64,000 nucleotides of DNA from the NCBI RefSeq assembly GCF_009749405.1, contig NZ_WBIQ01000005.1:248001-312000 (forward strand), read 5' to 3'. Below the pieces are notes generated by a model that saw nothing but the letters and a program-made list of their open reading frames with translations, had not been told where the DNA came from and made no database searches. The position numbers and the translations under genes were made by a program. Shown here piece by piece: positions 157 through 42,278 of this stretch. Position 1 is the first letter of the stretch. Each line of letters opens with the position of its first letter. Source of the stretch: Agromyces lapidis. Its GTDB lineage: Bacteria; Actinomycetota; Actinomycetes; Actinomycetales; Microbacteriaceae.

Positions 157-181
157 CGCGATCAGCTCGACAGTCCCCGCT

Positions 182-246
182 CCGGGGGTCGTTTCCCGCC
201 ATCTCGTGCGCAGGCGCGCTCGGAGATGGCGAAAATTGACCCCCGG
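182..246. repeat. Imperfect palindrome A (GGGGTCGnTTCCCG family)
   Basis: Two 24-bp arms (182-205 and 223-246) match at 20 of 24 positions around a 17-bp loop. The left arm carries GGGGTCGTTTCCCGCCA, closely related to the arms of the palindromes at 39502-39561 and 40681-40740. It lies between convergent genes and may also act as a terminator. Confidence 0.6.
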
Positions 247-304
247 AATGCGGTACCGCGAACGGCGGCTGCGCGCGAGCGCGCAGGCCGGTGCCGATAC
301 GATG

Positions 305-34737: not shown

Positions 34738-34801
34738 GGAACGCTCCTTTCACTTTCACTACTTAGTGGTGCTGGTAATCAGTGTTGCTGACTACCACTA
34801 C

Positions 34802-34831
34802 AAAGTAACACTGAGTACCGGTACTTAGCAA
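34802..34831 (-). promoter_or_regulatory. Promoter of the PadR-exporter operon with operator in the spacer
   Basis: Minus-strand TTGCTA (34826-34831) and TACTTT (34802-34807) are separated by 18 bp. The perfect palindrome GTACCGGTAC (34815-34824) lies inside that spacer. Direct repeats AACACTGAGTAC (34807-34818) and AACACTGAATAC (34830-34841) and further ACCACT/AGTGGT repeats make this AT-rich island a likely PadR binding region. Confidence 0.55.
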
Positions 34832-34993
34832 CACTGAATACCAAATTTCGTTCGAGGAGATTTCGAGTGCGGCGAATTCGACGGCGCGCAGCAGGCCGCG
34901 GAGGCCTCGGCACCCCGCGGCTCGAGGGCGCGCCGAGAGGCCGCCGTTGCGGACGGGCACGACCCCGACGACCGTCCCCGCGCGAGCCCGGCG

Positions 34994-38873: not shown

Positions 38874-39257
38874 CTAGGCGTCCTTCTTGGCGGTGGCCTT
38901 GGCGGCGGCGGCGGCCTTCTTGGCAGCCTTCGCCTCCTGAGCCTTCGCGTGAGCGGCGACCTGTGCGATCGCCTCTTCGGCGCGGAGGACCTTGGTGCGC
39001 ATGACGGCCTCGCTGAGGTTCAGCTGGCGGTCGAGCTCATCGGTGGTCTTGGACTCGGCGGTGAAGTCGACGACGGCGTAGATGCCCTCGTTCTTCTTGT
39101 TGATCTCGTAGGCCAGACGACGACGTCCCCAGATGTCGACCTTGTCGACGGTGCCGCCATCGTTACGGATGACGTTGAGGAACTTGTCAAGGCTGGGAGC
39201 AACGGTGCGCTCATCGATCTCGGGATCGAGGATAACCATCAGCTCGTACTGGTGCAT
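38874..39257 (-). CDS. rpsF: Ribosomal protein bS6
   Basis: bS6 (127 aa) begins [20 protein letters not shown] and contains [21 protein letters not shown] Lys/Ala-rich C-terminal tail (about 100-127) exceeds the usual length. GGAGG lies upstream of the ATG. First gene of the operon. Confidence 0.96.
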
Positions 39258-39583
39258 GACTAACCCACCTCCTTCGGACTCAAACGGCTACAGGATCTCT
39301 GCAGCAGGAGGGTTGTGCATACGTCGCACCGAGGAGGCCTCGCAATCGAGGCGCACGGGCAACCTGTCAATGGTAACGGATGCCCCGCGCTCGCGCCATT
39401 CGTGCTGCTCACGCCGCGCCTCCCGACCCCTGCGCCCTGCCCGCCCCTTGCGCTCGGCATCCGCCCCTTGCGCCGTGCATCCGCCCCTTGCGCTCGCTCC
39501 GGGGGTCGTTGCCCGACACCGCTCCGGGCCGCGCGCGAGCTCGGTGTCGCGAATCGACCCCGCGAACACCGCGGCGGCTGCGA
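39258..39583. other. Gene-free region with a 20-bp tandem repeat and palindrome B
   Basis: The stretch upstream of rpsF must hold its promoter, though no clear hexamers stand out. At 39441-39495 a 20-bp unit CCGCCCCTTGCGCTCGGCAT occurs nearly three times. It is followed at once by the palindrome at 39502-39561. Confidence 0.6.
39502..39561. repeat. Imperfect palindrome B (GGGGTCGnTTCCCG family)
   Basis: Arms 39502-39521 and 39542-39561 pair at 17 of 20 positions. The left arm reads GGGGTCGTTGCCCGACA. It lies about 20 bp beyond the stop codon of the AbiEi-like gene and 20 bp from a tandem repeat. Its relatives are at 182-246 and 40681-40740. Confidence 0.65.
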
Positions 39584-40576
39584 TCACGACGCGGGGAGCT
39601 CCCCCGAGACCTGGGGGAGTCCGGATTCGAGGAGCGTCGAGCGAAGCAGCGCGCGAGAGCGCGCGATCGGCCAATCCCATCGGATCGATCGACGCCGATG
39701 CCGTCGACAGATCGCATCGGCCCGCTTCTTCTCGTCGAGGATGACCTCTTCGATGGTTCGGCGTCCACGGAACGCCGGGTCGAGGTATTTCAGGTCGCCG
39801 TCGAACTCACCGAAGATCCCGTACTCCGGCCAGTCGAAGTCGACGCGATCGATGCGACCGTCGCTCCGCCCGAACTCGACCTGCAGCAGCGGACTCGGAA
39901 ACCCGAGCAGATGCATCTGACCCCGACTCAGTGATTCACCGACCGACTCCGACCGCGCGTCTGCGAAGGCGATCGCCCGGTCGGCGGAACGGGCGCCGCT
40001 CCGACGGCCCGAATCGCGCACCCGCGCAGCGAGTGCCATCGGGTCGACACCCGGCATCCGCCGATCACCATCGGCCCGCAGCACCGGTGCGACTGCGGCG
40101 TCGAGCGCGACGACCGCGTTCAGGAACGATCTCGTGCACGCGATGTCCACGAGCGTCTGCGCGAGACCCGTGACGAGGTACCCGTCGAGTTCGACGACTT
40201 CGGCGGGATCGAACGGCGTTCTCCTCCAGACGACCCCGTTGCGGGATCGCGGCCTGGTTCCCCGGGCGTCGGCCACCTCGACCGGCTCGGGCCAGCGCCC
40301 GAGCCGCGGCAGCCCCCACAACAGCGCCGCGGACTCATGGGAGAGCACGACGCGATCGCGGCGGGTGCAGACGACGGCCGCAACGCGCCCGAGTGCACGT
40401 TGCCGGTCTGAGGTCGACCCCCAGGCGCGTGCATTGGCGAATGCCCCTGAGCGAACTCGATGCAGGCGTCCGTCAGAAGCATCCCGTTCGAGGGTTCTCG
40501 ATGACGTGAACGGCGACTCAGCGGCGCAGGAGAAGAGCAGATCGAGGGCCGGTGCGTCGCGGTGGAACTCGGACAT
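39584..40576 (-). CDS. AbiEi-antitoxin/DUF559-like protein
   Basis: The 330-aa protein has an N-terminal helical segment, then VVLSHESAALLWGLPRLGRW, typical of actinobacterial proteins annotated as type IV AbiEi-like antitoxin regulators. The C-terminal part (RIDRVDFDWPEYGIFGEFDG followed by KYLD and EEVILDEKKRAD) resembles the DUF559/PD-(D/E)XK endonuclease-like fold with D, E-x-D and K in order. No AbiEii toxin partner is adjacent. The ATG at 40576 follows GAGGA. The gene is bracketed by related palindromes and tandem repeats. Confidence 0.65.
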   Translation of the reverse strand: MSEFHRDAPALDLLFSCAAESPFTSSRTLERDASDGRLHRVRSGAFANARAWGSTSDRQRALGRVAAVVCTRRDRVVLSHESAALLWGLPRLGRWPEPVEVADARGTRPRSRNGVVWRRTPFDPAEVVELDGYLVTGLAQTLVDIACTRSFLNAVVALDAAVAPVLRADGDRRMPGVDPMALAARVRDSGRRSGARSADRAIAFADARSESVGESLSRGQMHLLGFPSPLLQVEFGRSDGRIDRVDFDWPEYGIFGEFDGDLKYLDPAFRGRRTIEEVILDEKKRADAICRRHRRRSIRWDWPIARSRALLRSTLLESGLPQVSGELPAS

Positions 40577-40680
40577 GCCGGTGATCCTCGCAACGAACGG
40601 CGGCGCGAGAACCGTTCCGCGGCAGACTGCAGCCGATCCTGCTGACGCTCCTCTGTGGAGGAGGGGTACGCCTCGTTCGC

Positions 40681-40740
40681 GGGGTCGATTCCCGACAGGG
40701 AGCGGCCGCGACGACGAGGATCGTGTCGGGAAGCGACCCC
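40681..40740. repeat. Palindrome C (GGGGTCGnTTCCCG family)
   Basis: Arms 40681-40697 and 40724-40740 pair at 16 of 17 positions (GGGGTCGATTCCCGACA). This is the most regular member of the family. It sits upstream of the AbiEi-like gene and directly abuts a 30-bp tandem array. Confidence 0.7.
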
Positions 40741-40840
40741 GGGAGCGGCGCAGGTGAGCCCGGACACCCCGGGAGCGGCGCAGGTGAGCCCGAACACCCC
40801 GGGAGCGGCGCAGGTGAGCCCGGGAGCGGCGCAGGTGAGC
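40741..40840. repeat. 30-bp tandem array
   Basis: A unit starting GGGAGCGGCGCAGGTGAGCC repeats at 40741, 40771 and 40801 and, after a 9-bp deletion, at 40822. The first two units are a full 30 bp and differ by one base. The array ends next to the pcnA stop codon and abuts palindrome C. No spacers of independent sequence exist, so it is not CRISPR. Confidence 0.85.
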
Positions 40841-40841
40841 G

Positions 40842-42278
40842 CTACGCCCCGCGCGCGGCCCACCAGGCGCGCAGGCGATCGGCCGCGGCATCCTCGCCGA
40901 TGGGACCCTCATCGAGGCGCACCTCGAGCAGGTACTTGTAGGCCTCGCCGACGACGGGGCCGGGCGTGATGTCGAGCAGCTTCATGATCTGCTGGCCGTC
41001 GAGCTCGGGCCGCACCGCGGCGAGTTCCTCCTCCTCGGCGAGCATCGCGATGCGCTCCTCGAGGTCGTCGTAGGCGAAGGCGAGCTGGTCGGCCTTGCGG
41101 CGGTTGCGGGTGGTGACGTCGGCGCGCGAGAGGATGTGCAGCCGCTCGAGCTGCTCGGCGTCGCCCGCGTCGCGCACGTAGCGGCGCACGGCCGAATCGG
41201 TCCACGCGCCGTCGGTGTAGCCGAAGAACCGCAGGTGCAGCTCGATGAGGCGCGAGACCGCGGCGACCGTGTCGTTGTCGAAGCGCAGCGCGCGCAGGCG
41301 CTTGCGGGCGAGCTTCGCGCCGACGACGTCGTGGTGATGGAAGCTGACGGCGCCGCCCGACTCGTAGCGGCGCGTGGCCGGCTTGCCGATGTCGTGCAGC
41401 AGCGCCGCGAGCCGCAGCACGAGGTCGGGGCGACCCGGCACAGCGCGCTCGCCCTCGTAGTCGATGGCCTGCTCGAGCACGGTGAGGCTGTGCTCGTACA
41501 CGTCCTTGTGGCGGTGGTGCTCGTCGCGTTCGAGGCGCAGCGCGGGCAGCTCGGGCAGCACGCGGGCGGCGAGCCCCGAGTCGACGAGGAGACGGAGGCC
41601 CGGGCGCGGCGCGTCGGTGAGCAGCAGCTTGCCGAGCTCGTCGCGCACGCGCTCGGCCGAGATGCGGTCGATCTCTGGGGCGAGGTCGCTCATCGCCTGC
41701 GTCGTGTCGTCGTCGACCTCGAAGCCGAGCTGCGAGGCGAAGCGCGCCGCACGGAGCATGCGCAGCGGGTCGTCGCCGAACGACCGCTCGGGCGAGGACG
41801 GGGTGCGCAGCACCCTCGCCACCAGGTCTTCGACGCCGCCCGACGGGTCGACGAGCTCGAGCTTCGGCAGCCGCAGCGCGAGTGCGTTCACGGTGAAGTC
41901 GCGGCGGGTGAGATCGGCCTCGAGCGAGTCGCCGAAGACCACCTCGGGCTTGCGCGAGTCGCCGTCGTACGCGTCGGCCCGGTAAGTCGTGATCTCGACG
42001 GTCTCGCCGGCGACCTTCGCCCCGATCGTGCCGAAGGCGCGGCCGATGTCCCAGTGGGCCTCCGCGATCGGCTTCACGATCGCGAGGATCTCGTCGGGCG
42101 TGGCATCCGTCGTGAAATCGAGGTCGTTCATCTCGCGGCCGAGGAACGCGTCGCGAACCGGGCCCCCGACGAGCGCCAGTTCGTGGCCGGCGCGCTCGAA
42201 CGCCTCGGCGAGCTTCGCGACGGTCGGCGAAGACGCCGCCTCGGCCAGGCGGTCGAGGGCTGCCGCGACACTCTGCAT
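40842..42278 (-). CDS. pcnA: CCA tRNA nucleotidyltransferase / poly(A) polymerase family
   Basis: The 478-aa protein adds or repairs the 3' CCA of tRNAs. The head domain has LALVGGPVRDAFLGREMNDL and DFTT (Gly-Gly, R-D and D-x-D catalytic elements), then RRDFTVNALALRL and DPLRMLRAARFASQLGF. An HD domain LAALLHDIGKPATRR follows. The ATG at 42278 is preferred because TAACAT lies seven bases upstream, typical of a leaderless start; an ATG at 42287 is the alternative. It diverges from the DUF6049-murJ operon, its usual neighbour in this family. Confidence 0.92.
   Translation of the reverse strand: MQSVAAALDRLAEAASSPTVAKLAEAFERAGHELALVGGPVRDAFLGREMNDLDFTTDATPDEILAIVKPIAEAHWDIGRAFGTIGAKVAGETVEITTYRADAYDGDSRKPEVVFGDSLEADLTRRDFTVNALALRLPKLELVDPSGGVEDLVARVLRTPSSPERSFGDDPLRMLRAARFASQLGFEVDDDTTQAMSDLAPEIDRISAERVRDELGKLLLTDAPRPGLRLLVDSGLAARVLPELPALRLERDEHHRHKDVYEHSLTVLEQAIDYEGERAVPGRPDLVLRLAALLHDIGKPATRRYESGGAVSFHHHDVVGAKLARKRLRALRFDNDTVAAVSRLIELHLRFFGYTDGAWTDSAVRRYVRDAGDAEQLERLHILSRADVTTRNRRKADQLAFAYDDLEERIAMLAEEEELAAVRPELDGQQIMKLLDITPGPVVGEAYKYLLEVRLDEGPIGEDAAADRLRAWWAARGA

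Follow-up and report, generated by a model that had tools for sequence, protein, structure and literature searches.

Palindromes bracket an orphan AbiEi-like gene with a predicted Vsr-type nuclease domain in Agromyces lapidis and many relatives of this gene

Introduction

REP-type palindromes that come with a dedicated gene have been tied to HUH tyrosine transposases (passages of PMC3116915, PMC6006769, PMC3733652). As these passages describe them, REP/REPIN-RAYT systems (TnpA-REP, REPtron) pair one gene with one palindrome type, the gene being flanked by its own palindromes, and these palindromes consist of inverted half-sites at a fixed spacing and are dispersed in the genome; paralogs each have their own type, and the gene phylogeny is largely that of the hosts. 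Two further described groups bear on the gene considered here: AbiEi proteins (S. agalactiae AbiEi and M. tuberculosis Rv2827c), which in the part of PMC7319586 that describes them bind several inverted repeats beside their own gene, and the homing endonuclease I-Bth0305I, which according to an extract of PMC3943268 dimerises on a target of nearly 60 bp.

Here we analyze a gene from a 64,000-nt stretch of the Agromyces lapidis contig NZ_WBIQ01000005.1 (hereafter “the window”), together with its relatives in the genus, the family and the phylum. All of the REP/REPIN-RAYT traits listed above have a likeness in this gene family. It differs, however, in its enzyme, which is predicted to combine an AbiEi fold with an EDxHD/Vsr nuclease fold and is no HUH tyrosine transposase, and in its palindromes, which measure ~60–68 bp, have cores 19 bp apart and reach only a modest copy number. 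Since the enzyme is unrelated, the family is not a member of the RAYTs, despite its REP/RAYT-like behavior. Among the open-licence papers searched, none was recognised as a description of this pairing of gene and palindrome.

Results

The window gene and its flanking repeats

A preliminary description of the window had placed a gene bracketed by matching palindromes and tandem arrays between the core loci rpsF and pcnA. The open reading frame is present as described (39584–40576, minus strand, ATG start, 330 aa, hereafter P0001), and so are the related palindromes B and C with a 20-bp x3 tandem and a 30-bp array. Its neighbors match Pfam Ribosomal_S6 (rpsF, 38874–39257) and PolyA_pol/HD (a pcnA-type protein, from 40842), which bears out the placement between two core loci. 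A Pfam scan of these immediate neighbors found no toxin gene, AbiEii or modification gene; with Ribosomal_S6 and PolyA_pol/HD on its two sides, the window gene lacks the bicistronic arrangement with an AbiEii nucleotidyltransferase toxin. The features are as follows.

39584..40576, minus strand: orphan gene for a predicted AbiEi-EDxHD/Vsr-type nuclease, P0001 (ORF, PADLOC, AlphaFold, structure matches)
39959..40552, minus strand: AbiEi-like half, residues 9–206, predicted winged helix and nucleotidyltransferase-like domain (structure match)
39611..39955, minus strand: predicted nuclease domain, residues 208–322, with invariant E214, D246, E257, D259 and K263 (structure match and alignment)
39502..39561, no strand: palindrome B, 3' of the gene (likeness to C; weak as a lone hairpin)
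40681..40740, no strand: palindrome C, 5' of the gene (hairpin z -4.3)
181..247, no strand: palindrome A, third copy in the window (half-site and inverted-repeat evidence)
39441..39500, no strand: 20-bp x3 tandem adjoining palindrome B (C 32 and G 14 on the top strand, i.e., G-rich outward)
40736..40840, no strand: 30/21-bp array starting at the outer edge of palindrome C (beyond C, top strand G 47, C 32, i.e., G-rich outward)

Palindromes B and C belong to one palindrome family, forming a single 73-nt inverted-repeat pair (39495–39567 with 40675–40747, 75%). Their half-site GGGGTCGNTTCCCGACA, allowing up to three mismatches, occurs seven times in the window against a shuffle mean of 1.37, and seven was reached in 0 of 100 shuffles. 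As a hairpin, palindrome C was matched in strength by none of 200 shuffles; palindrome B is degenerate and, taken alone, lies within chance (z -0.65, 52 of 200 shuffles), so that its standing comes from its likeness to C. No intrinsic-terminator-like sites, promoters or known RNAs were found in 39200–40900.

Elsewhere in the window, an AT-richer inverted repeat of 34 nt with a 3-nt loop lies at 34773–34843. The window's genome also holds two further relatives of the gene: L040 (G000:C14), with a 3'-side hairpin of different sequence that lies beyond the search range of the bracketing counts given below, and L041 (G000:C8), which is of the DUF559 type and has several GAGTCGCC...GGCGACTC palindromes on each side.

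Predicted fold of the protein

Sequence searches with P0001 gave no Pfam match over the cut-off (the only row being a chance-level one to SAMD1_SHD, E 0.072), none to DUF559 (PF04480) and no NCBIfam match at E up to 1; a search of solved structures with the profile of A1 gave 0 matches at E up to 1, and Foldseek alone returned nothing at E 0.001 or better (top Rv2827c, 2.7e-3; AbiEi, 7.3e-3). PADLOC, on the other hand, matched P0001 to AbiEi models (best 1e-10), so that of the initial label “AbiEi/DUF559-like” the first half stands and the second is without a Pfam match. The AlphaFold model, built with 58 relatives, is confident (pLDDT 92.3, pTM 0.89). VIA comparison of this model aligned residues 9–206 with the AbiEi antitoxin 6y8q (Z 10.2, rmsd 6.4, 172 aligned) and residues 12–207 with Rv2827c (1zel, Z 8.1), while residues 211–321 aligned with I-Bth0305I (3r3p, Z 10.7, rmsd 2.5 Å, 94 aligned) and residues 209–321 with Vsr (1cw0, Z 9.8, rmsd 2.9 Å, 105 aligned). 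The model thus contains both the AbiEi fold (wHTH plus nucleotidyltransferase-like domain) and the EDxHD/Vsr nuclease fold, and P0001 is predicted to be an AbiEi-antitoxin-like half joined to an EDxHD/Vsr-type PD-(D/E)XK nuclease fold. An orphan antitoxin- or nuclease-like gene had been proposed from the outset; judged by fold it is both, with no toxin gene as immediate neighbor. Features of HUH tyrosine transposases were not found, and no transposase family occurs among the Pfam matches of P0001 or its relatives.

Across the 58 relatives, E214, D246, E257, D259, K263, E282 and K283 are invariant (58/58). Mean pairwise identity is 0.31 for residues 12–60, 0.34 for residues 61–206 and 0.44 for residues 207–322, making the nuclease domain better conserved than the N-terminal part. 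Pfam AbiEi_4 was matched in 26 of the 58, P0001 not among them. In the sister group from the same genus (DUF559/REase_MTES_1575), 13 of 16 proteins match MTES_1575 and 7 of 16 match DUF559 at E up to 0.01, and many members of this group likewise have flanking palindromes.

Compared with AbiEi antitoxins, with which its two N-terminal domains share the fold, P0001 is predicted to have an extra C-terminal nuclease domain, has no AbiEii next door, and its sites lie on both sides of the gene as well as dispersed. With I-Bth0305I and Vsr it shares the predicted nuclease fold, and the ~60-bp target that the extract of PMC3943268 gives for I-Bth0305I is about the length of the palindromes, but the DNA-binding half is different, the gene is chromosomal and cognate-type palindromes are abundant in several host genomes. 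The PADLOC matches to AbiEi, and the report in a passage of PMC3710099 that the MTES_1575 REase domain, which also occurs in the sister group, is fused to HEPN, would be consistent with a defense or toxin-antitoxin function, in which decoy palindromes on the chromosome restrain the nuclease and incoming DNA sets it free. We consider this very unlikely given that a partner toxin or modification gene is absent next to the window gene and that the gene stays by core genes in 22 genomes.

Bracketing across the gene family

Family members were found in 54 of 60 genomes of the genus, up to four per genome, and our genus set comprised 100 places plus the window (n = 101), the nine weakest being left out. 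Hairpins (16-nt arms, at least 14 paired, loop of up to 45) are most frequent at distances of no more than 400 bp from the protein match, with 59 upstream and 71 downstream (four 200-bp bins), against 1–15 per 200-bp bin farther out, to 8 kb. By locus, 35 of the 101 are bracketed on both sides, 20 upstream only, 30 downstream only and 16 on neither side at this threshold. With ORF-based windows, the 99 usable relatives included 83 with any palindrome, 33 with palindromes on both sides and 27 in which the two were also alike; the corresponding counts for MarR controls from the same genus (29 usable of 30) were 9, 1 and 0. Left and right flanks were alike beyond the 99th percentile of mixed pairs at 52 of 101 loci, vs. 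16 of 394 same-locus pseudo-flanks.

Hairpins beside genes are common, as the any-side hairpins at 9 of 29 MarR loci illustrate, and the ordinary explanation would be that they are bidirectional terminators whose likeness on the two sides stems from local duplication. This we regard as highly improbable: no intrinsic-terminator-like site was found around the window gene (39200–40900), two-sided likeness occurs at 27 of 99 relatives vs. 0 of 29 MarR loci, and further points against it, both described below, are the constant spacing of dispersed cognate copies and a 19-nt grammar common to several genera.

The same bracketing extends beyond the genus. In the family, 199 genomes from 85 genera were sampled (own genus included), and members were found in 147 of these genomes and 67 of these genera. 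Of 28 loci from other genera, 23 have a hairpin on any side and 14 on both; two of the 28 are short (L245 and L249) and distort the flank-likeness statistic of this set, which was therefore left aside. In a phylum sample, 77 of 296 genomes had members, four of these genomes being of the own family; among 27 loci from outside the family, including the AT-rich L302, 22 had any palindrome, 14 had palindromes on both sides, and 12 had palindromes on both sides that were alike. Overall, bracketing by palindromes is a property of the gene family, beyond the window.

A 19-nt ruler under changing letters

Aligning 22 copies from two genomes (G023 and G027) revealed a 68-nt dyad in which the core GTTTCC usually occurs four times, two per arm. 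The centers of the aligned TGTTTCC copies vary, which is not what recent copy-and-paste would give. More generally, the outer 9 nt of the bracketing palindromes recur 19 nt inward (identity 0.47 vs. 0.29 expected, z 18, n = 105), also when taking one palindrome per locus and excluding the rpsF site (z 11.5, n = 51) and in other genera (0.58, z 15, n = 30). In the genus set, none of the other offsets from 11 to 25 rises. In other families (n = 36), z is 3.0 at 19 nt, hardly above the 2.7 at 24 and 2.4 at 21. The grammar is absent from 171 hairpins far from the gene, which show codon periodicity only, and, judged by eye, the window palindromes carry only a poor 19-nt repeat. The sister group DUF559/REase_MTES_1575, although alike in its genus and its frequent flanking palindromes, also differs here, with the grammar absent from 14 palindromes at DUF559-type loci, as well as in its domain matches, P0001 itself having none in Pfam over the cut-off. 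Such a constant ruler, with letters that change, would be expected from a protein scaffold that is conserved while its specificity diverges.

In a stem covariation test, 90.2% were paired, against at most 55.1% when slid; two-sided change was modest (7 pairs, equalled or exceeded in 34 of 500 shuffles), so that covariation is no proof of selection on a folded strand.

Every protein comes with a palindrome type of its own, and likeness between palindromes is found mainly where proteins are alike. Across the 87 loci with a palindrome, palindromes were alike in 22 of 27 pairs at 70% protein identity or more and in 13 of 29 at 60–70%, against 17 of 278 at 50–60% and 9 of 3407 below 50%; among paralogs of the same genome, no pair out of 59 had like palindromes. 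Since hardly any palindrome pairs are alike, the global Mantel correlation is weak (r 0.063, reached in 50 of 999 permutations).

The rpsF-pcnA site in the genus

Among the 60 genomes of the genus, 22 have a relative in the rpsF-pcnA interval, or 23 when counting one (G033) whose contig ends at the site. As rpsF itself was found in 59 of 60, the gene is on record at this place in some genomes and absent from the record in others, among them 36 that have rpsF. In a tree omitting a duplicate (L059) and a frameshifted locus (L064), the 22 site proteins fall in one clade (support 0.99), joined only by L049 and L053 from elsewhere. The 23 usable site loci include one duplicate; 20 of the 23 are flanked by a palindrome on one side or more and 8 on both, and from genome to genome these palindromes usually differ (12 of 210 site pairs alike): at the rpsF-pcnA gene, the palindrome letters change in place.

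The preliminary description had read the symmetrical bracketing as a cassette moving as a unit. As a main reading, whole-cassette mobility was rejected on account of this same-site conservation, in 22 of 60 genomes and one clade with mostly different palindromes; the contrary case raised together with it, a gene at the same place with palindromes absent, did not occur either.

Separately, plasmid or phage carriage was considered and rejected, P0001 having no match in 72,556 plasmid and 50,697 phage records. On one contig (G055:C9), an 18.9-kb stretch that includes the gene has a second, inverted copy with 100% identity (L058 and L059), either a real duplication or an assembly error. L064 (G058:C16), an rpsF-site relative, seems frameshifted; its match ends at residue 219 and unrelated sequence continues the frame.

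The patchy presence at rpsF-pcnA, the two clade members located elsewhere and the nuclease domain's best fold match, I-Bth0305I, all fit a homing-type selfish nuclease that cuts gene-free alleles so that the gene is copied in, the palindromes being remnants of the target. Against this, where both sides were seen, each flanking palindrome is whole and no split-target half. Many copies also lie elsewhere in the genomes, the site clade looks vertically kept, and the plasmid and phage records hold no match to P0001, and we thus rate homing as quite unlikely.

Dispersed copies and tandem arrays

Three palindrome types were found flanking their own gene and dispersed, with inverted pairs of half-sites, as in RAYT systems. 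The half-site TGTTTCCGTTCGNGC (up to one mismatch) occurs 51 times in G023, 46 in G010, 15 in G027 and 12 in G013, all of which have the cognate gene, whereas G047 has 6 and none of the other 55 genomes more than 3 (reversed control 0–3). For GGGTCGNTTCCCGMCA (up to one mismatch) the counts are 59 in G005, 14 in G033, 8 in the window's genome and at most 7 elsewhere, and for ACCACTCGTNTCGCACNGGAC (up to two mismatches) 30 in G019, 23 in G009, 8 in G057, 7 in G045 and at most 2 elsewhere; G005, G019 and G009 likewise have a cognate gene. Many half-sites form inverted pairs whose starts lie a constant distance apart (45, 42 and 35 nt for the three types). Copies are few in the window's own genome, at those 8 half-site matches, and G053 has a TGTTTCC-type gene yet only 2 half-site matches. 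A fourth pattern, TGCGCCACTTCGGCG, has a high background (71 in G027, 27 in G023, up to 22 in others), and we therefore relied on the other three. In an open-frame test for extragenic position, random positions scored the same as the dispersed copies in such GC-rich DNA. When 15 dispersed palindromes of G023 were compared with G027, both flanks were comparable for six, of which two were shared and four lacked the palindrome in G027, with ragged junctions.

Several copies drew attention individually. Palindromes of the ACCACTCG type also occur in G045 (7 half-sites) and G057 (8 half-sites), two genomes that lack a close cognate gene; they are perhaps leftovers of a lost gene. In G005 (L328), near-identical palindromes with the same center at 1501–1558 and 1728–1785, 227 bp apart, are possibly a recent duplication. 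On four contigs (G010:C10 and C40, G033:C55 and C76), palindromes lie within ~130 bp of the contig ends, as if breaking assemblies.

Might the palindromes simply be operators, the protein being an AbiEi-like autoregulator or a regulator of dispersed genes and the nuclease domain serving a structural or other use? AbiEi and Rv2827c autoregulate via inverted repeats in their promoters (according to the relevant part of PMC7319586), and palindromes often lie upstream of the start, with a fixed core spacing that is operator-like. They are, however, no rarer downstream than upstream (71 vs. 59 up to 400 bp from the match), no variation is seen at the nuclease motif residues, and, among genomes with a relative of the gene, some have numerous dispersed copies and others next to none. 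An operator role alone therefore appears unlikely.

Tandem repeats accumulate beside the gene, with densities of 0.96 and 1.16 per kb in the adjoining 300 bp vs. 0.00–0.53 in farther bins, and the peak persists without those overlapping hairpins (24 and 24 vs. 2–9 per bin). On the strand that runs outward 5' to 3', 32 of the 34 arrays next to bracketing palindromes (29 loci) are G-rich, against 18 to 15 at control hairpins, and 11 of 12 arrays beside dispersed TGTTTCC copies are also G-rich outward; by base count, both window arrays fit this polarity. For dispersed copies, array adjacency is strong for TGTTTCC (11 of 18 vs. 4.6% of random positions), moderate for the G005 type (11 of 24 vs. 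10.5%, polarity 9 to 4) and weak for ACCACTCG (4 of 23 vs. 5.7%, polarity 2 to 2). With the effect weaker or absent in these two other types, array polarity is a lead and no rule.

Discussion

Taken together, the explanation that we find fairly probable is a site-specific DNA-binding nuclease with cognate flanking recognition palindromes, i.e., a REP/RAYT-like partnership built on a non-homologous enzyme. Its parts differ in strength. The protein very probably binds the palindromes; it would, on balance, also nick or cut at them, and it is possible, if rather less assured, that this activity spreads or homogenises them. Mechanistically, the AbiEi-derived winged-helix half would read a short core, the complete site would be a dyad of ~60–68 bp with two cores per arm, 19 bp apart, and the EDxHD/Vsr-type nuclease domain would act at this dyad. 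The binding of inverted-repeat arrays by AbiEi, combined with an I-Bth0305I-like dimer on ~60 bp, offers a natural mechanism for such a four-core dyad. Several host genomes would keep up to tens of copies of the same sites at other places, and the sites would turn over with the specificity of the protein; the tandem arrays next to them may be scars that repair has left there.

Several observations count against this nuclease-palindrome partnership: the few copies in the window's genome and in G053, the copies lacking a close gene in G045 and G057, the 16 loci with no bracketing hairpin at the threshold, the weak Mantel correlation, the varying centers of the TGTTTCC copies, the high background of TGCGCCACTTCGGCG, and a 19-nt grammar that is absent at DUF559-type loci, indistinct outside the family and poor in the window's own palindromes. 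In addition, if numerous targets lie intact in the genome that encodes it, the nuclease has to be kept under restraint. Restraint could come from an action on single-stranded DNA or extruded hairpins only, or from tight autorepression via the upstream palindrome.

A bolder and more tentative proposal, which we offer with some doubt, is that of a phylum-wide nuclease-palindrome class unrelated to RAYTs: the AbiEi-EDxHD fusion would cut a four-core dyad with a conserved 19-bp ruler, drive the spread and turnover of palindromes and leave polarised G-rich arrays as repair scars, with protein and palindrome co-evolving so that the letters become new and the geometry stays the same.

Finding the one-gene-one-palindrome pairing with a second enzyme, unrelated to the first, would point to more than one origin of this lifestyle. 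It would also give a target to the common actinobacterial AbiEi-type genes, for which we found none assigned, and would offer a natural series of nucleases in which specificity changes and the geometry of the site stays fixed.
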